This document shows, piece by piece, positions 7,044-17,468 of a stretch of 64,000 bases of DNA. The notes under the pieces were generated by a model, which saw nothing but the letters and a program-made list of their open reading frames with translations, was not told the origin of the DNA and searched no databases. The DNA comes from Bordetella sp. H567. GTDB taxonomy: Bacteria; Pseudomonadota; Gammaproteobacteria; Burkholderiales; Burkholderiaceae_B. Where the stretch lies: NCBI RefSeq assembly GCF_001704295.1, contig NZ_CP012334.1:2802084-2866083 (forward strand). Reading direction: 5' to 3'. A program made the translations under genes and the position numbers. Positions within the stretch are counted from its first letter, which is position 1. Every line of letters starts with the position of its first letter.

Positions 7044-8126
7044 GTGGCGAACAAAACAAAATCGATGTCGCGCCCAGCGCGGTGGTGGCTCGGCGCGCGC
7101 GGCCCGCGATACGTGCAGGATGCACAGGAAGCTGGCGTACCGACGCGTCGCGCCGCCTTGTGCGCAGCCGGCGGCTTCTGGCTCGCGGCCATCCTGTGCG
7201 GGGTGCCCGCCGCGCAAGCGGCCGATGCGTGGCCGACCCATGCCATCAAGCTGGTTGTTCCTTTCGCCGCGGGCGGCGGCGTGGACGCCGTGGCGCGCGC
7301 CCTGGCCGCCCAGCTGAGCGACGAACTGCATCAAAGCGTGGTCGTGGAAAACCGCGTCGGCGCGGGCGGCCTGATCGGCACCGACTATGTCGCCAAGTCC
7401 GATCCCGACGGTTACACGCTGCTGATGGGCACGCAGACCACGCTGGCCGTCGCGCCGCTGCTGAGCAAGGGCGCCACGCTGGATCCGCTGAAGGCATTTG
7501 CCGGTACCAGCCTGGTGGCGGACTCGCCCATGCTGCTGGTGGCCAACCCCGGATTCGCGGCCAAGGATATGAAGCAGCTTATCGAGCTGGCCAAGCAGAA
7601 GCCCGGCTACGTGAACTACGGTTCCGGCGGCGTGGGGACCACGCCGCACATGGCGGGTGAACTGCTGGCCCTGAGCACGGGCATCAAGATGACGCATGTG
7701 GCGTACAAGGGCGAGCAGCCGGCGCTGACCGATGTCGTGGGCAACCAGATCCCCCTGATGTTCTCCAACCTGGTGGTGGCGCTGCCGCTGGTGCAAAGCG
7801 GCAGGTTGCGGGCGCTGGCGATATCCACTGCCCAGCGTTCTCCGGCCGCGCCCGCTATTCCCACCGTGGCGGAATCCGGTGTGCCGGGCTTCGATGCCGC
7901 GACCTGGTTCGGCGTGGTCGCGCCCAAGGCCACGCCGCGCGCCGTCGTGGACAAGCTCAGCGATGCCATCCACCAGGCCGTGAACAGCCCACGCCTGCGC
8001 CAGATCCTGCAAAGCCAGGGACTGAACGTACGCACCAGTACCCCGGCGGCGTTCGACGCCTACATGGCCAGCGAGTTCGACAAGTGGCGCGGTGTTATCC
8101 AGCAGGCGCGCATCAGTACCCAGTAA
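7044..8126 (+). CDS. Bug family (TctC-type) periplasmic solute-binding protein
   Basis: A 360-residue protein with a GTG start at 7044, preferred because AAGGGGACGAGG precedes it; ATG 7065 is the alternative and has no ribosome site. A long N-terminal segment of about 28 residues precedes the hydrophobic export signal that ends AQAAD (near residue 58). Ligand-loop motifs are VVPFAAGGGVDAVARAL, VVENRVGAGGLIG and DGYTLLMG. Bug proteins deliver carboxylates or other small molecules to TctAB-type transporters or act as sensors. No TctA or TctB membrane gene is nearby. Confidence 0.92.
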   Translation: MANKTKSMSRPARWWLGARGPRYVQDAQEAGVPTRRAALCAAGGFWLAAILCGVPAAQAADAWPTHAIKLVVPFAAGGGVDAVARALAAQLSDELHQSVVVENRVGAGGLIGTDYVAKSDPDGYTLLMGTQTTLAVAPLLSKGATLDPLKAFAGTSLVADSPMLLVANPGFAAKDMKQLIELAKQKPGYVNYGSGGVGTTPHMAGELLALSTGIKMTHVAYKGEQPALTDVVGNQIPLMFSNLVVALPLVQSGRLRALAISTAQRSPAAPAIPTVAESGVPGFDAATWFGVVAPKATPRAVVDKLSDAIHQAVNSPRLRQILQSQGLNVRTSTPAAFDAYMASEFDKWRGVIQQARISTQ

Positions 8127-10304: not shown

Positions 10305-10856
10305 ATGCCACAGCGATCTTTTCAGTTCGAGCCTGGCCGTTACGTGCGCTGGGCGATGGGGATGTTGCTGATCCTGATCGCCATCAGCGCCATGGCACAG
10401 GAGGCGATCTTGCCGTCCTGGAATGAGGGTCCCTCGCGCAGGGCGATCGTATCTTTCGTGCAGGACGTCACGAAAGAAGGCGGCGAGCACTTCGTGCCGG
10501 TGTCCGAACGTATTGCCGTCTTCGACAACGACGGCACACTCTGGAGCGAGCAGCCACTGTATTTCGAGGTGATGTATTCGCTGGACCAGGTGAAGGTGAT
10601 GGCACCCCGGCATCCGGAATGGAAAACCCGGCAGCCCTTCAACCTGGAGATGCTGCAATGGGTCGCCGACGGTTCCGGCCGGCGCTTTGCGGGCCTGGTG
10701 CACCATACCGACGCCGCGCGCGAATGGGCCTACGACAGGGACTCAAAAATCGGCCGGCTGGACAAGGCGCTGGACGTGGCGCGGCGGCGTGACTGGGTCG
10801 TGGTCGACATGAAGGACGAGTGGAAACGCATCTATTCCTTCGATGCGCCCCGTTAG
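10305..10856 (+). pseudogene. HAD-family phosphatase-like gene with internal in-frame deletion
   Basis: The 183-residue product has a signal-like N-terminus (WAMGMLLILIAISAMAQ), the HAD motif I region RIAVFDNDGTLWSEQP, then ...HPEWKTRQPF joined straight to LEMLQWVADGSG. In intact homologues, as I know the family, about 130 or more residues separate these segments, carrying the Ser/Thr and Lys motifs and the first acidic pair of motif IV (GNSDGD). Here they are absent, although the ending REWAYDRDSKIGRLDKAL through VVDMKDEWKRI is well preserved. The join is near 10640. The reading frame is intact, so a product could be made, but it is unlikely to be an active phosphatase. An upstream in-frame ATG at 10203 is possible. 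Confidence 0.75.
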
Positions 10857-10966
10857 CCGGCACGTTCCGCCGCGGGAACGCTGCGGGGGAACGGAGCGTA
10901 GGGACTTTCCCGCATGACGGAAAGTATGTATTTGCAGACCAAATAGAAAACGGTACCTTAGCTGCC

Positions 10967-10978
10967 TGTCTATACAGC
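10967..10978. promoter_or_regulatory. Candidate HutC operator upstream of the TauD gene
   Basis: The core TGTCTATACAGC lies 66 bases before the start of the dioxygenase gene. Its exact reverse complement occurs at 15876-15887 in front of hutH. The TGT(A)...(T)ACA pattern agrees with the known HutC-type recognition sequence. It lies just downstream of a weak -35/-10-like pair (TTGCAG at 10932, TACCTT at 10954), a good position for repression. Confidence 0.65.
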
Positions 10979-11043
10979 ACTAGCCAGATACGCTGCTGGC
11001 CGTGTCCCGAAATCGCTTCCCGTCCCTCTGCCAGGAGAGTTTC

Positions 11044-12138
11044 ATGTCGGAGTCGAGTGTTCTGCAAGGCGCCTGCGTGTGGAAGGGGCCCGAGATGGTG
11101 GATAACCCCCGCTGGGTCAAGACGTTCCCGCCGGCCGTACTGGAGCAGATCGACGCCGCGGTCCGCAAGACCGAGGGCGTGGCGTGGCGCGAGATCAATC
11201 GACAGAACTTCCCCTTGCCCGATGCCGCGCCTTTCCTTGACGACGTGCGCGAAGAGCTGGAGAACGGCTCGGGCATGGTCAAGATGAAGGGCCTGGACGT
11301 GGGCCGTTACGAGCAGGAGCAACTGCGACGGCTGTGGTATGGCCTGGGCGCCCATCTTGGCACGCCCATGTACCAGAACTACCGCGGCGAAGTCATGCGG
11401 GAAATCAAGGACGAAGGCATGGGTGTCGGCGCCAAGCTGTACGGCTCGACGGTGGATGAAACCGGCAAACAATTCCTCTCGTCCGGCGCCCGGACGCTGA
11501 CGCCCGGACAATTGCGCTTCCATACCGACCGGTGTGACGTCGTGGGCCTGCTGTGCGTGCGCCAGGCAGCCGAGGGCGGCGTCAGCAAGCTGGCGAGCAG
11601 CGCAACCGTCTACAACGAGATCCTGCGGCGCCGTCCCGACCTGCATGCCTTGCTGTGCAAACCCATCCCGCGCAGCCGGTTCGGCGAAGAAGCGGGCGGC
11701 GAGCATATCGTCTACGACCTGCCCATCTTCGGCGTGCGGGACGGCAAGCCAACCAGCCATTTTTCGCTGACGTACATTGAAAATGCCCAGATGGTGCCCG
11801 GCGTTCGCAAGCTGACGGACGCCGAACACGAAGCGATCAAGCTCTTGATGACCGTGGCGGAAGAGTCGTGCTTCGAGATGCGCTTCGCGCCCGGCGACAT
11901 CCAGCTCCTGAACAACCACGTCATCTATCACGGACGCACGGCGTTCAAGGATCAGGCCGAAACCGGCCAGAACCGGCTTCTCATGCGCCTGTGGCTGTCG
12001 GTGCCGAATTCCCGCGCCTTGCCTACGGATCACGCGGTACTGTGGGGAGACGTCGGGTCGGGCAAGCCGCACGGCGGCATCGCGCAGCCCGCCGCCGCGA
12101 TGAGCGCCCAGGCGGCAAACGGAAGCGCCAACGGATAG
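11044..12138 (+). CDS. TauD/TfdA-type Fe(II)/2-oxoglutarate dioxygenase
   Basis: A 364-residue protein from ATG 11044, with AGGAG seven bases upstream. The facial triad is visible as LRFHTDRCDVVG (His160, Asp162) and a distal His in LNNHVIYHGRTAF. An Arg after it (NRLLMRLWL) fits 2-oxoglutarate binding. Members oxidise taurine, aryloxyacetates, betaines and many amino-acid derivatives. It heads an operon with an amino-acid ABC transporter and a HutC-type repressor. A substrate related to histidine is therefore plausible but not shown. The C-terminal 30 residues are Ala/Gly-rich and look disordered. Confidence 0.9.
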   Translation: MSESSVLQGACVWKGPEMVDNPRWVKTFPPAVLEQIDAAVRKTEGVAWREINRQNFPLPDAAPFLDDVREELENGSGMVKMKGLDVGRYEQEQLRRLWYGLGAHLGTPMYQNYRGEVMREIKDEGMGVGAKLYGSTVDETGKQFLSSGARTLTPGQLRFHTDRCDVVGLLCVRQAAEGGVSKLASSATVYNEILRRRPDLHALLCKPIPRSRFGEEAGGEHIVYDLPIFGVRDGKPTSHFSLTYIENAQMVPGVRKLTDAEHEAIKLLMTVAEESCFEMRFAPGDIQLLNNHVIYHGRTAFKDQAETGQNRLLMRLWLSVPNSRALPTDHAVLWGDVGSGKPHGGIAQPAAAMSAQAANGSANG

Positions 12139-12208
12139 AGATACCTTCAATCGCGAACCAGCCGGCTCGCCCGGATGGGCTTTGCTTCATGTACCTCGGG
12201 AGAACTCA

Positions 12209-13081
12209 ATGAAACGGCATGCAGTCAAACAGGCAGGATGGTTACGCAACGGAGCCCGCTTTCTTCTCGTTCCGCTCCTGCTGGGCCTGACCGCCGCCAC
12301 CGCGTCGGCCGCGAAGTTCAGCAATTGCGAAGTGAGCGGCACGCGCGGTTCGGTCAAGCTTGAAACTGTGGTGCCCGGCGCCCTTTCCGTGCGCCCGGTA
12401 CTGCCCGCGCCGGGGTGGTGGAATGGCGACTCGCCGGAAACGATCAATGGCGGCTTTGAATATTGCATGGCCGCCAATATGGCCTACCGTGCGGGGCTGG
12501 ACCGCGTGAATGTCGTGAGCCGTTCGTTCGCGCAGATCCTGACGGGCCAGGCCCAGGGCTTCGACATCGCGCTCAGCGAAATCACCATTACCGAAGAGCG
12601 CAAGAAGGCGGTGAACTTCACCGATCCGTACTTCGATTCCGACATGGGCATCCTGGTGAAGGCGGGCGACAAGATCACCGCGGAGAACATCAAGAGCAAG
12701 CGGCTGGGCGTCAAGCAGGGCACTACCACGTACCAGTTCCTGTTGGACCACGTCAAGCCCACCGAGGCGCCGAAGGTCTATCCCGAGGTGGCGGCCATGT
12801 ACGCCGCTCTCGCGGCCGGCCAGGTGGATGCGGTGATCTACGACACCCCGAACGTACTGGCACAGGCCAAACAATCGGGAGGCCGGTTCCAGGTCGTGGG
12901 CCGCTATGACACCGGCGAACGGTGGGGCGGGCTGGTCAACAAGGATTCGCCGAACCTGGCGACGTTCAACAAGCTCATCCAGGAAATGAAGGACGACGGG
13001 ACATTCGCCCGCCTGGCCGCGCAATACCTTGCGCCCAGTCTTGGCGAGGATCCGAACAAGGTGCCGGTCTTCAAGCCGTAA
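12209..13081 (+). CDS. ABC transporter substrate-binding protein, family 3
   Basis: A 290-residue exported protein from ATG 12209, with CGGGAGAA upstream. The signal peptide runs through FLLVPLLLGLTAATASAA. The periplasmic binding fold of polar amino-acid transporters is recognised from GFDIALSEITITEERKKAVN, FTDPYFDSDMGILVKAGD, and LGVKQGTTTYQFL with VDAVIYDTPNVL. The segment before the first domain contains an unusual Cys/Trp-containing stretch, SNCEVSGTRGSVKL and APGWWNGDSPET, not typical for HisJ-like proteins. In this operon histidine or a derivative is the likely ligand (inference from HutC/HutH context). Confidence 0.9.
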   Translation: MKRHAVKQAGWLRNGARFLLVPLLLGLTAATASAAKFSNCEVSGTRGSVKLETVVPGALSVRPVLPAPGWWNGDSPETINGGFEYCMAANMAYRAGLDRVNVVSRSFAQILTGQAQGFDIALSEITITEERKKAVNFTDPYFDSDMGILVKAGDKITAENIKSKRLGVKQGTTTYQFLLDHVKPTEAPKVYPEVAAMYAALAAGQVDAVIYDTPNVLAQAKQSGGRFQVVGRYDTGERWGGLVNKDSPNLATFNKLIQEMKDDGTFARLAAQYLAPSLGEDPNKVPVFKP

Positions 13082-13094
13082 CAGCGCCGCTTCC

Positions 13095-14231
13095 ATGCGC
13101 CATCCCATCGATCCCATGCCGGGCACGGCGGGCCCCGCCGGCCGTGAGCGCCGGCTGGACATCGGCGGCATGCCTTCCATGCCGACGGCACTGTTCCTCT
13201 GCGCCCTTGCGGCGGTGGCGCTCACGATAGCGTCCAGCTGGTACACCATCGGCGCCCTGCGTGCGGTCCTGCTCGCGAACAAGCTCGATGGCGTGTGGGT
13301 GCCGGCAGGGATGGTGGTGCTGGGCCTGGCCTCGGCCTGGATCGCGCTGCCGCTGTATCGGACCTTCAAGCGGTGTAGGGAGGTTCGCGCCGCCGCCGCG
13401 CGCAGCGATATCGTCGCCGCTCGCGTGGCCCGATCGCAGGCACGCGTACAGGGCTGGATCGTCCTCGGCTATACGCTCACGCAGTTCATCTGCGTGCTGG
13501 CCCTTCAATTCCTTCTGGCGAACAACCAGGCGGTGGCCAAGACCTTCTTCTTCGTGCCGCTGATCGTCAATACCTTCCCGCTGGTGCTGCAGGCCTTCTG
13601 GATCAACGTAAAGATCTTCATGATCGCCGAGGTCTTCGTGCTGATCTGGGGGCTGATCGTGGCCTTGGCCATGCTGGCGCCCGGCGAGGCCGGCAAGCCC
13701 TTGCGTGTGCTTGCCACGGCCTATGTCGACATATTCCGCGCGATGCCGGCGGTGCTGGTGATCTATCTCGTCGGCTTCGGCTTGCCGCTGACCGGCGTGC
13801 CGATCCTGAAGGACCTCTCGCTGACGACCTATGTCGTCATTGCCCTGACCCTGACGGTCGGCGCCTACGTCGCGGAAATCTACCGTGCCGGCATCCAGGG
13901 GATCCATTGGAGCCAGACGGCGGCCGCCCGCTCGCTGGGGCTGTCGCATATGCAGACGATGCGGTTCGTCGTGCTGCCGCAGGGGATCCGGCACATCATC
14001 CCGCCCTTGCTGAACGCCTTCATCGCCCTGCAAAAGGATACGGCGCTGGTCAATGTGGTCGGGGTGATCGATTCCTTCAACCAGTCCATGGTGCTGGCCT
14101 CCAACTACTACAACCTCTCGGCCGCCACGACCGTCGCGCTGCTGTTCATCATCATCTCCGTACCCCAGGTGCGCCTGGTCGAGCGCATGGCAAAGCGCGA
14201 TCGCGCACGCATGCGCGCCGGCGGCGCTTAA
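13095..14231 (+). CDS. Amino-acid ABC transporter permease with N-terminal extension
   Basis: The 378-residue protein is much longer than the usual 220-240 residues of HisM/HisQ-type permeases. The C-terminal half is a normal MetI-like domain, with FRAMPAVLVIYLVGFGLPLT, the EAA loop YRAGIQGIHWSQTAAARSLG, and LPQGIRHIIPPLLNAFIALQ. The N-terminal half adds at least two extra membrane segments around ALFLCALAAVALTIASSW and VVLGLASAWIALPLY, separated by charged linkers. Only one permease gene is present, so it probably acts as a homodimer. Start ATG 13095 has no strong ribosome site; later ATGs at residues 26 and 29 of the extension are possible. Confidence 0.88.
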   Translation: MRHPIDPMPGTAGPAGRERRLDIGGMPSMPTALFLCALAAVALTIASSWYTIGALRAVLLANKLDGVWVPAGMVVLGLASAWIALPLYRTFKRCREVRAAAARSDIVAARVARSQARVQGWIVLGYTLTQFICVLALQFLLANNQAVAKTFFFVPLIVNTFPLVLQAFWINVKIFMIAEVFVLIWGLIVALAMLAPGEAGKPLRVLATAYVDIFRAMPAVLVIYLVGFGLPLTGVPILKDLSLTTYVVIALTLTVGAYVAEIYRAGIQGIHWSQTAAARSLGLSHMQTMRFVVLPQGIRHIIPPLLNAFIALQKDTALVNVVGVIDSFNQSMVLASNYYNLSAATTVALLFIIISVPQVRLVERMAKRDRARMRAGGA

Positions 14232-14242
14232 GGAGCCAGGGC

Positions 14243-14986
14243 GTGTCGTTCATCGAAATCCGCGGCATCTCCAAGTCCTACGGACAATTGCCGGTCATCG
14301 ATCAATTGAGCATGACCGTGGAAAAGCACCAGGTGGTGTGCCTTATCGGCCCATCCGGATCGGGCAAGTCCACCTTGCTGCGCTGTATCAACGGCCTGGA
14401 GCCTATCGACGACGGCGAAATCCTGGTCCACGGCGACCGTATCACCGGGCCGGGCGTCGATGTGGACGCCTTGCGGCGTGACATCGGCATCGTGTTCCAG
14501 GGCTACAACCTGTTCCCCCACATGACCGTGCTGGAGAACGTGACCTTGGCGCCGGTCCAGGTGCTCAAGCACTCGCGCAAGCAGGCCGAGGAACAGGCGA
14601 TGGCGCTGCTCGCGCGCTTCGGCCTGGCGCAGAAGGCGGGGGAATACCCGGACCGGATGTCCGGCGGGCAACAGCAGCGCGTGGCCATCGTACGCGCGCT
14701 GGCGATGGACCCCTTGGTGCTGCTGCTGGATGAAATAACGTCGGCACTGGATCCCGAACTGGTGTCGGATGTATTGAATATCGTGCGCGACCTGGCCAGC
14801 GAGGGCATGACGATGTTGCTGGCCACGCACGAAATGGGCTTCGCCTCCGAAGTGGCGTCCAAGATATGTTTCCTGTGCGACGGCGCCGTCTACGAAGAAG
14901 GCCCGCCGGCGCAGATTTTCCGGGATCCGCAACGCGATCGGACCCGCGCATTCTTGCGCAGTATCCGAGAGGCCGGCCGCATCTAA
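14243..14986 (+). CDS. Amino-acid ABC transporter ATP-binding protein
   Basis: A 247-residue ATPase with a GTG start at 14243, preceded by AAGGAGCC overlapping the permease stop. Walker A is IGPSGSGKSTLLR (about residues 35-47), the signature is MSGGQQQRVAIVRALA, Walker B is LVLLLDEITSALDPE, and the switch histidine is LLATHEMGF. Walker B reads DEIT instead of the frequent DEPT; the catalytic Glu is kept. It belongs to the GlnQ/HisP subfamily and completes a binding protein-permease-ATPase set. Confidence 0.93.
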   Translation: MSFIEIRGISKSYGQLPVIDQLSMTVEKHQVVCLIGPSGSGKSTLLRCINGLEPIDDGEILVHGDRITGPGVDVDALRRDIGIVFQGYNLFPHMTVLENVTLAPVQVLKHSRKQAEEQAMALLARFGLAQKAGEYPDRMSGGQQQRVAIVRALAMDPLVLLLDEITSALDPELVSDVLNIVRDLASEGMTMLLATHEMGFASEVASKICFLCDGAVYEEGPPAQIFRDPQRDRTRAFLRSIREAGRI

Positions 14987-15004
14987 CGTCAACAGGCCCT
15001 AGCC

Positions 15005-15817
15005 ATGAACCATCGCACCGTCGAACGCCTCGCCATGGCCACCGCACAGGGGAAACAGACACCGGCAGCGGGGCAGGGGGCCGCCACGGCCATTCAGGGC
15101 GGCGCGGCAACGACGCTGCATGAACGGATCAAGGCATATGTGACGCGCGGCATCGCCGACGGTACCTGGGCGCCCGGGGAACGGCTGCCTTCCGAACATG
15201 AACTGGTCTCCCAGCTAGGCGTGTCGCGCATGACGGTCAACAAGGCGCTGCGCGAACTGGCCGCCGCGGGACGGATCGTGCGCGTGCCTGGCGTGGGTAC
15301 TTTCGCGGCGGAGGCCAAGCCGCAGTCAACCTTGCTGCAGATCGCCAATATCGCCAACGAGATCCGCTCGCGCGGACATGAGCACCAATGGCGCTGCCTG
15401 TCCCGCGAACGGGTGGCCGCCGCCCCGGATGTCGCGGTGTGGCTGGGCATGCTGCCGGGTCAATCCGTCTTTCACATGGTCAGTGTCCACCTGGAAAACG
15501 GGGCGCCGATCCAGCTGGAAGACCGCTACGTCAATCCCGGGATGGTCCCCGACTTCATGGACCAGGATTTCGAGCACACCACGCCGGGCGAGTACCTGCT
15601 GGCCTCGATACCGGCCGACTTGGTCGAGCACGTTGTCGACGCGGTCATGCCCACGCCCAAGCAAGCACGCATACTCGACATGAAAGTCACGGAGCCCTGC
15701 CTGCAGCTGACGCGCCGCACGTGGTTCGAAGACGTCCCCGTCACGTGGGTGCGCTGCCTGAATCCGGCATCGCGCTACAGCCTGGGCAGCCGGTTCCGGC
15801 CCGGCCCCGATCAGTGA
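15005..15817 (+). CDS. hutC: HutC-type GntR family repressor
   Basis: A 270-residue regulator with an N-terminal GntR winged helix (LHERIKAYVTRGIADGTWAP, then RLPSEHELVSQLGVSRMTVN, about residues 38-78) and a UTRA effector domain. Hallmarks of histidine-utilisation repressors are the region ALRELAAAGRIVRVPGVGTF and the end VTWVRCLNPASRYSLGSRF. Known HutC proteins bind urocanate and repress hut genes. It lies 18 bases after the ABC ATPase gene and 85 bases before hutH. Two copies of a HutC-like operator core flank this unit, so it probably controls both the transport operon and hutH. The first 35 residues are extra and low in complexity. Confidence 0.88.
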   Translation: MNHRTVERLAMATAQGKQTPAAGQGAATAIQGGAATTLHERIKAYVTRGIADGTWAPGERLPSEHELVSQLGVSRMTVNKALRELAAAGRIVRVPGVGTFAAEAKPQSTLLQIANIANEIRSRGHEHQWRCLSRERVAAAPDVAVWLGMLPGQSVFHMVSVHLENGAPIQLEDRYVNPGMVPDFMDQDFEHTTPGEYLLASIPADLVEHVVDAVMPTPKQARILDMKVTEPCLQLTRRTWFEDVPVTWVRCLNPASRYSLGSRFRPGPDQ

Positions 15818-15875
15818 GATAAGCCCTTTTACGCATGCGCGGGGTGTAGCCACTCACGCGATTCTGCTTCTCAAC

Positions 15876-15887
15876 GCTGTATAGACA
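15876..15887. promoter_or_regulatory. Candidate HutC operator upstream of hutH
   Basis: GCTGTATAGACA lies 15 bases before the hutH ATG and is identical, in reverse orientation, to the core at 10967-10978. It contains TATAGA, which could double as a -10 element, so bound repressor would block initiation. Flanking bases differ between the two copies, so the shared 12-mer is not part of a larger duplication. Confidence 0.65.
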
Positions 15888-15902
15888 TGAATAGAGTTGA
15901 CC

Positions 15903-17468
15903 ATGGAAAAAAAACCTATCGTGCAACTCACGGCCCAGTCCATGACCCTGGCCGATCTTCGCCGCATCCATGCCGGCGACGTACAGCTGGCCCTGGCGGA
16001 TGAACTTATCCCCGCATTGAGGCGGGCACACCAGACCGTGAGCGACATCGTGGCCGGCGGCCAGGTTGTCTACGGCATCAACACCGGCTTCGGCAAACTA
16101 GCCAGCACCCGTATAGACAAGAATCACCTGGCCGACCTGCAACGCAACCTGGTGTTGTCCCACAGCGTGGGGATAGGCGACATCCTGCCGGCTCCGGTGG
16201 TCCGCCTGATCCTGGCGACCAAGGCCATGAGCCTGGCGCGCGGCTTCTCCGGCGTCCGGCCCGAGCTGGTGGCGGCCTTGATCAAGCTGTTCAATGCGGG
16301 CGTGATCCCCTGCATTCCCGCCAAGGGCTCCGTGGGCGCATCGGGCGATCTCGCACCGTTGGCGCACCTGGCCTGCGTACTCATCGGGGAAGGGCAGGCG
16401 CTGCTGCCGGACGGACAAAGGGTGAGTGGGGCGCAGGCCATGGGCGCCGTGGGCTTGAGCCCCTTCGTCCTGGGCCCCAAGGAGGGGCTGGCGCTGCTGA
16501 ATGGCACCCAGGTATCGACGGCATTGGCGCTGGCCGGCCTCTTCGGAGCCGAACACGTGTTCGCCGCCGCGCTGCTGGCAGGCGCGCTTTCGCTGGAAGC
16601 GATACAGGGATCGGTCAAGCCGCTGGATCCGCGCATACACGCGGCGCGCGGGCAACCGGGCCAGATCGCGGTGGCGCGCGCATTGAGTACGTTGTTGGCG
16701 GGCAGCCAGATCGTGACCTCGCATGCGAACTGTGGACGGGTCCAGGATCCGTATTCCATCCGCTGCGTACCGCAGGTGATGGGCGCCTGCCTGGATAACC
16801 TGGCCTACACGGCCGGTGTATTGGCCAGGGAGGCCAACGCCGCCTCGGACAATCCGCTGGTCTTTGCCGACACCGGCGAAGTGATATCGGGCGGAAACTT
16901 CCATGCCGAACCGGTCGCCTTCGCCGCCGACATCATCGCCCTGGCAGTCAGCGAAATCGGCGCGATCTCCGAACGGCGCACGGCGCTCCTGCTGGATAGC
17001 GGCCTGTCCGGCCTGCCGCCATTCCTGGTACGCGACGGCGGGTTGAATTCCGGATTCATGATCGCGCAGGTCACCGCCGCGGCCCTTGCGTCCGAAAACA
17101 AGTCGCTCGCCCACCCGGCCAGCGTCGACAGCCTGCCCACCTCGGCGAACCAGGAAGACCACGTGTCCATGGCCACCTTCGCCGCGCGTCGCCTGGGCGA
17201 CATGGTGTCCAACACCGCGGCGGTCGTCGGCGTGGAGGCAATGGCTGCCGCGCAAGGGATCGAACTCAAGCGTACGCCCCAGGGGCCGCGCAGCTCGGCG
17301 GCGGTGGAGGGCGTCCTGGCGGAAATCCGCCAACATGTGGCGTTCCTGGAGCAGGACCGCTATCTGGCCGACGATGTGGAGACCATGCGCGAATGGGCGA
17401 TGAACCCAGACCGCGTCAACGCCTTCACGGATATCATTCCCAGTCTGAACAGCGCGAACCAGGCCTAG
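15903..17468 (+). CDS. hutH: Histidine ammonia-lyase
   Basis: A 521-residue enzyme that deaminates L-histidine to trans-urocanate. The MIO prosthetic group forms from Ala-Ser-Gly in [16 protein letters not shown] (residues 146-148 of the ATG form). Histidine-type landmarks are [16 protein letters not shown], the His in [11 protein letters not shown], and [12 protein letters not shown] with the conserved Glu; tyrosine and phenylalanine lyases differ at these sites. Length is that of HutH. A TTG six bases upstream could also start. No urocanase, imidazolonepropionase or formiminoglutamate enzyme is found in the window, so the pathway must continue elsewhere or be a partial route. Confidence 0.93.

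Follow-up and report, generated by a model that had tools for sequence, protein, structure and literature searches.

A putative HutC operator shared by hutH and a TauD dioxygenase–amino-acid importer operon in Bordetella sp. H567

In a 64,000-nt stretch of the Bordetella sp. H567 genome (contig NZ_CP012334.1, positions 2,802,084 to 2,866,083; hereafter the window), the gene of a TauD-type dioxygenase, the genes of an amino-acid ATP-binding cassette (ABC) importer, the repressor gene hutC1 and hutH, encoding histidine ammonia-lyase, lie consecutively on the plus strand, and the same near-palindromic sequence is found before tauD and before hutH. The two copies are unique in the genome, the copy upstream of tauD is conserved among relatives, and the sequence marks both genes even where these are unlinked. 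It is considered very likely that both sites are operators of a HutC-type repressor, and that tauD and the importer form a HutC-controlled accessory branch of histidine utilisation.

Two copies of the 12-mer in the window and in the genome

The initial annotation had described an identical 12-mer, GCTGTATAGACA, before the tauD unit (minus strand) and before hutH (plus strand), with no other intergenic copy noticed, and had placed both sites shortly before start codons with a HutC-family gene between them. Each of these statements was borne out. No other exact copy of the 12-mer was present in the window, and the 5,532,470-base genome contained only two exact copies, both corresponding to these sites, the expected number being 0.14 copies per genome under a second-order Markov model trained on the window and on the second hut locus (L041). 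A whole-genome scan with the 12-mer had been proposed as a check, and many random exact matches were not seen. The cores of operators A and B (Table 1) end 67 and 15 nt upstream of the tauD and hutH start codons, respectively, and the product of the intervening gene scores 294 bits against the HutC model TIGR02018. Among the matches listed, one had a single mismatch (genome position 5291096, within a sugar-nucleotide-reductase-like gene). With up to two mismatches allowed, the reversed control gave 167 matches and the 12-mer 109, which makes mismatched copies of the 12-mer uninformative.

Two details of the initial description were revised. Both 12-mers are exact as reported, but the recognisable element is a near-palindrome of 10 bp, TGTMTAKACA; likewise, the exact reverse-complement relation between the sites holds for the letters but is of no further significance when the operator is a palindrome. 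In the text of PMC4494728, a HutC-subfamily consensus, NyGTMTAKACNy, is described together with weaker additional half-sites 7–12 nt from the centre, and TGTA-N2-TACA is given in PMC12977541 as the Pseudomonas HutC operator. Site B matches the former consensus in full and site A matches it except at the last y (G), whereas each site is one base off the latter.

Operator A lies directly downstream of a putative sigma70-type tauD promoter, and promoter-like elements at a similar distance were read by eye in the tauD upstream regions of several relatives. Possible third half-sites follow both cores by 4 nt. A TAG at this +4 position occurs in six of seven non-Pandoraea tauD sites and in none of 11 Pandoraea tauD sites, as well as in all four tauD-linked hutH sites, and by inspection it is missing in three unlinked Variovorax hutH sites. 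The TAGAG at hutH may simply be a ribosome-binding site.

Allowing the looser form TGTMTAKWCA, five places were found in the genome, namely the two window sites, the hutI/hutC2 intergenic region (TGTATATTCA) and positions 752111 and 2643546. The site at 2643546 (L097, 1501–1510) is a perfect TGTATATACA, ~40 bp upstream of a tripartite-tricarboxylate-receptor-like gene followed by a hydratase-like frame, and is perhaps the site of another GntR regulator. The site at 752111 (L096, 1501–1510), TTATGTATAGACATAA, extends the same core into a longer near-palindrome and lies next to a lyase-like gene; the genes at both places were named by eye.

Table 1. Genes and putative regulatory elements of the tauD–hutH locus (window positions)
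Feature	Position	Strand	Basis
Putative sigma70-type tauD promoter	10932..10959	+	TTGCAG, 16-nt spacer, TACCTT; read by eye
Operator A (putative)	12-mer 10967-10978	-	core TGTCTATACA at 10967-10976, read on +
Possible third half-site TAGCCA	10981..10986	+	4 nt after operator A core
tauD, TauD/TfdA-type Fe(II)/2-oxoglutarate dioxygenase	11044..12138	+	PF02668, 95.8 bits, cut-off 27
Periplasmic amino-acid-binding protein, SBP_bac_3, GlnH-like	12209..13081	+	domain and model searches
Amino-acid ABC permease	13095..14231	+	BPD_transp_1
Amino-acid ABC ATPase	14243..14986	+	ABC_tran
hutC1, GntR/UTRA histidine-utilisation repressor	15005..15817	+	TIGR02018, 294 bits, cut-off 220; GntR and UTRA
Operator B (putative)	12-mer 15876-15887	+	core TGTATAGACA at 15878-15887
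TAGAGT, possible third half-site or part of weak ribosome-binding site	15892..15897	+	4 nt after operator B core
hutH, histidine ammonia-lyase	15903..17468	+	TIGR01225, 679.8 bits, cut-off 539.15

Conservation upstream of tauD and placement of the core in relatives

A genome scan with TauD retrieved 22 relative loci, 76–84% identical, and in 15 of these a strict core was found within 150 bp upstream of tauD. When the same upstream regions were subjected to 300 dinucleotide shuffles, the core turned up in 0.003 loci on average and in one at most. The remaining 349 kb of the 22 loci contained three strict cores, two of them before hutH and the third at position 7519 of the Variovorax boronicumulans locus (L070), 472 bp upstream of tauD. 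Conservation in related species, proposed initially as a further check, was thus found upstream of tauD, including genomes in which tauD-ABC and the hut genes are unlinked.

HutC was present in 18 of the 22 relative genomes (E<=1e-30) and HutH in 19 (E<=1e-60), and the three without a HutH match (L064, L065 and L067) all lack the site. With kinship ignored, Fisher tests associated the site with HutH (p = 0.023 for the strict core, 0.0065 for the relaxed core) and more weakly with HutC (p = 0.077 and 0.024, respectively). The order tauD-ABC-hutC-hutH is kept in Variovorax CF313, V. boronicumulans and Bordetella BOR01; in the first two, the next gene after hutH is hutU, 70–71% identical to the hutU of the window genome.

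The strict core was then sought genome-wide in 16 of the 22 relatives, comprising 15 classified genomes and CGII-43 (L067), with L052, L055, L062, L064, L065 and L066 outside this search. The 15 genomes contained 45 cores, of which 14 lie before tauD, 22 no more than 5 kb from a match to hutC or hutH (the V. boronicumulans core 472 bp ahead of tauD is one of these) and nine elsewhere. The clearest arrangement was observed in Pandoraea, where tauD-ABC is apart from the hut operon in all 10 genomes searched: in eight of these the tauD core and the hut-operon core are the only two, lying on separate contigs or separated by more than 300 kb, and each of the other two genomes has one additional core. 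CGII-43, which harbors tauD-ABC and has no HutC or HutH match, contains seven cores, none of them within 150 bp before tauD.

Other arrangements of the core were also noticed. In Variovorax 770b2 (L134), two more cores (10684 and 10750), 66 bp apart, lie ~2.7 kb beyond hutC, and similar pairs are found close to the hutC-hutH loci of CF313 and IB41. In many of the Pandoraea loci, L051, L053 and L057 among them, a second TGT-N4-ACA box (e.g., TGTCTTTACA) immediately precedes the core, ~51–62 nt upstream of the tauD ATG, forming tandem boxes 10 bp apart.

TauD was matched in four of 268 genomes of the family at E<=1e-100, the window genome included, and none of the five same-genus genomes was listed; an even draw of the order gave three of 399 at E<=1e-80, again with the window genome included, and the matches L105 and L106 of this draw were only 46% identical. 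These few matches indicate a patchy distribution of the gene. The single new close relative, L103, carries a one-mismatch core, TGTATAGGCA.

Genes of the locus and the second hut locus

The TauD residues H160, D162 and H296, invariant in 15 aligned sequences, are taken to be the H-x-D...H triad of TauD/TfdA dioxygenases. The nearest solved relatives by sequence are FrbJ (5eqn, E 3.1e-33) and the "predicted hydroxylase" 7n7v (E 1.1e-49), for which a literature search found no paper; in both, the H-x-D and distal His regions align with the window TauD, whereas its conserved stretch at ~127–156 is partly gapped. A predicted TauD structure based on the 15 aligned sequences reached a mean predicted local distance difference test score of 41.8 and was not used. 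By gene spacing, the SBP_bac_3, BPD_transp_1 and ABC_tran genes are joined in one operon, the composition sought for a polar-amino-acid ABC importer. HutH is the sole match in the genome (E<=0.001), and its translation includes Ala-Ser-Gly, presumably the MIO triad. A short open reading frame at 10305-10856, perhaps an internally shortened gene, has no Pfam or NCBIfam match and carries FDNDGTLW, which we assume to be a HAD-phosphatase-like motif.

The genes hutU, hutI and a second HutC are located ~430 kb from the window locus, in the order hutI-hutC2-hutU. HutC2 is 42% identical to HutC1 and also passes the TIGR02018 cut-off (304 bits), but the recognition helices differ (SRMTARRAILEL in HutC2 versus SRMTVNKALREL). 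An intergenic site of different shape from the window core, ACTTGTATATTCAAGT, is found at the HutC2 locus (L041, 8900–8915; genome 3246899–3246914), and Bordetella BOR01 (L093) has ACTTGTATATCCAAGT at the equivalent position. From these differences, the two HutC paralogues may split their operators between them. The initial proposal of a two-unit regulon is supported as to the joint operator of the tauD unit and hutH, but the number of units probably exceeds two, HutC2 having its own hutI-hutC2-hutU locus. In a HutC tree of 21 rows, HutC1 and the HutCs linked to tauD in BOR01, CF313 and V. boronicumulans form one group (support 98/97); five of 24 fetched HutC loci had been dropped by the motif filter, four of which were read by eye and one (L081) was not recovered. 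The HutC query gave 33 matches in the genome at E<=0.001, itself included, ~22 of them confined to the DNA-binding-domain region.

Proposed regulation, alternative explanations and significance

HutC would bind TGTMTAKACA at the tauD promoter and beside the hutH start, and would thereby repress both the operon tauD-SBP-permease-ATPase-hutC1 (SBP, the solute-binding protein gene) and hutH. During histidine breakdown, urocanate would release HutC and both units would be expressed, the tauD unit importing an amino acid and oxidising it with Fe(II) and 2-oxoglutarate. The operator consensus and the urocanate response of HutC are taken from PMC4494728 and PMC12977541, and by homology the repression of the tauD unit by HutC and its release by urocanate are most likely. 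It is concluded that tauD-ABC falls under predicted HutC control, acting in cis in the window and, in Pandoraea and part of the Variovorax genomes, in trans; most relatives that have the site presumably govern the accessory branch from their hut locus. Since in several relatives the switch marks the tauD operon and hutH even though these are far apart, a further branch of the histidine pathway, so far uncharacterised, probably exists. The initial claim that the dioxygenase and the importer share control with hutH gains support from sites that are unique, conserved and unlinked, as far as sequence comparison can tell.

Several observations weigh against this interpretation. The strict core is missing in seven of the 22 relatives: L052 and L070 have near matches, and L055, L064, L065, L066 and L067 have neither a strict nor a relaxed core upstream of tauD, L055 and L066 lacking it despite HutC in their genomes. 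Although V. boronicumulans shares the gene order, its sites at both places are only inexact, while the genome of L062, a metagenome-assembled genome, carries the site without any HutC match (E<=1e-30). Close kinship links the 11 Pandoraea loci, whose tauD flanks are 75% alike on average (41% in the non-Pandoraea set), and the flank comparison was anchored on the core, so that core identity there is partly built in. HutC1 falls below the model NF011575 (PRK14999), with 221.9 bits against a cut-off of 424; because HutC2, beside hutU, and two other HutCs scanned also fail this model, it was not treated as defining HutC. In addition, positions 752111 and 2643546 show no visible hut link, and in PMC12772324 (2025) HutC is reported to sense PCA, so that inducers other than urocanate may exist.

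The reversed pattern occurs at 0 to 3 places per genome, with 24 in the 15 genomes against 45 cores; as the core number is only about twice this control, the case rests on core position. Such totals, together with an AT-rich core near a putative transcription start, where promoters conserve sequence, would fit a chance or conserved core-promoter sequence that is not an operator. This explanation is highly improbable, given that 36 of the 45 cores lie before tauD or at hut genes and that shuffled upstream regions give almost none. The sites might instead be real HutC-subfamily operators mainly bound by HutC2, by both HutCs or by another GntR protein, in which case the tauD unit would respond to another signal or to a mixture of signals. 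The NyGTMTAKACNy consensus is, per PMC4494728, common to other HutC-subfamily regulators; HutC2 could bind the window sites too, the genome offers many further HutC-query matches, and the tauD genes of Variovorax L050 and L063 are preceded, on the opposite strand, by a gene identified by eye as FadR-type GntR. Nevertheless, HutC2 has a different recognition helix and a different site at its own locus, and all 11 Pandoraea genomes have the tauD core, with a single HutC match (E<=1e-30) in nine, three in one and none in one, which makes another main binder unlikely.

A more serious contender, possible though not favoured, is that HutC control is real and tauD-ABC is unrelated to histidine chemistry, urocanate acting as a nutrient signal and the dioxygenase serving another amino acid or nitrogen or sulphur scavenging. 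The gene is kept without a hutH match in L064, L065 and L067, which indicates that the link to histidine is not obligatory; in L067 (CGII-43), the tauD position and upstream letters are the same as in G149, for which a completeness of 99% is listed. In sequence, the binding protein most resembles glutamine-binding proteins, and glutamine-binding models and structures outscore HisJ. However, in four genomes (the window, BOR01, CF313 and V. boronicumulans) the unit and hutC-hutH are physically contiguous, which suggests a histidine-related amino acid, and such a compound is our guess for the dioxygenase substrate. Five equivalogs were matched by TauD, all far below their cut-offs, and matches to named dioxygenases were weak, so no substrate, taurine included, can be named. 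More speculatively, and with rather long odds, tauD-ABC could be an unrecognised entry into histidine catabolism, in which a modified histidine (e.g., N-methylated or hydroxylatable) would be imported and converted to histidine or urocanate, with HutC and HutH completing a self-amplifying loop via urocanate; the module would move between bacteria and be captured by the resident HutC through its ready-made operator.

HutC regulons of Proteobacteria with additional transporters have been reconstructed before (Leyn et al. 2016, PMC5343134). The system preferred here, a HutC-controlled accessory branch, resembles these in the GntR repressor HutC, in hutH as core target and in lineage-specific transporters, Burkholderiales included. 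It differs in the dioxygenase: "dioxygenase" and "taud" occur 0 times in the main text of PMC5343134, a count that covers the main text apart from the supplementary tables. For Pseudomonas HutC, the targets given in PMC12977541 are hutF, hutU-G, ntrBC and further predicted genes, and the word "dioxygenase" occurs there 0 times. PMC4494728 parallels the window in the HutC-subfamily consensus and the extra half-sites near GntR operators, whereas its main text contains none of the terms "dioxygenase", "histidine utilization" and "Bordetella". A literature search over titles and abstract starts, with few full texts and no supplements covered, named no TauD unit under HutC.

In this organism the histidine pathway occupies two loci, with a pair of diverged HutC paralogues and two types of putative operator. 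The conservation of an operator at unlinked loci is a strong clue to the function of a dioxygenase and an importer without assigned substrate, and it turns a "TauD-family protein" into a testable claim, that of a urocanate-induced, HutC-controlled gene whose substrate would be sought first among histidine-related amino acids.

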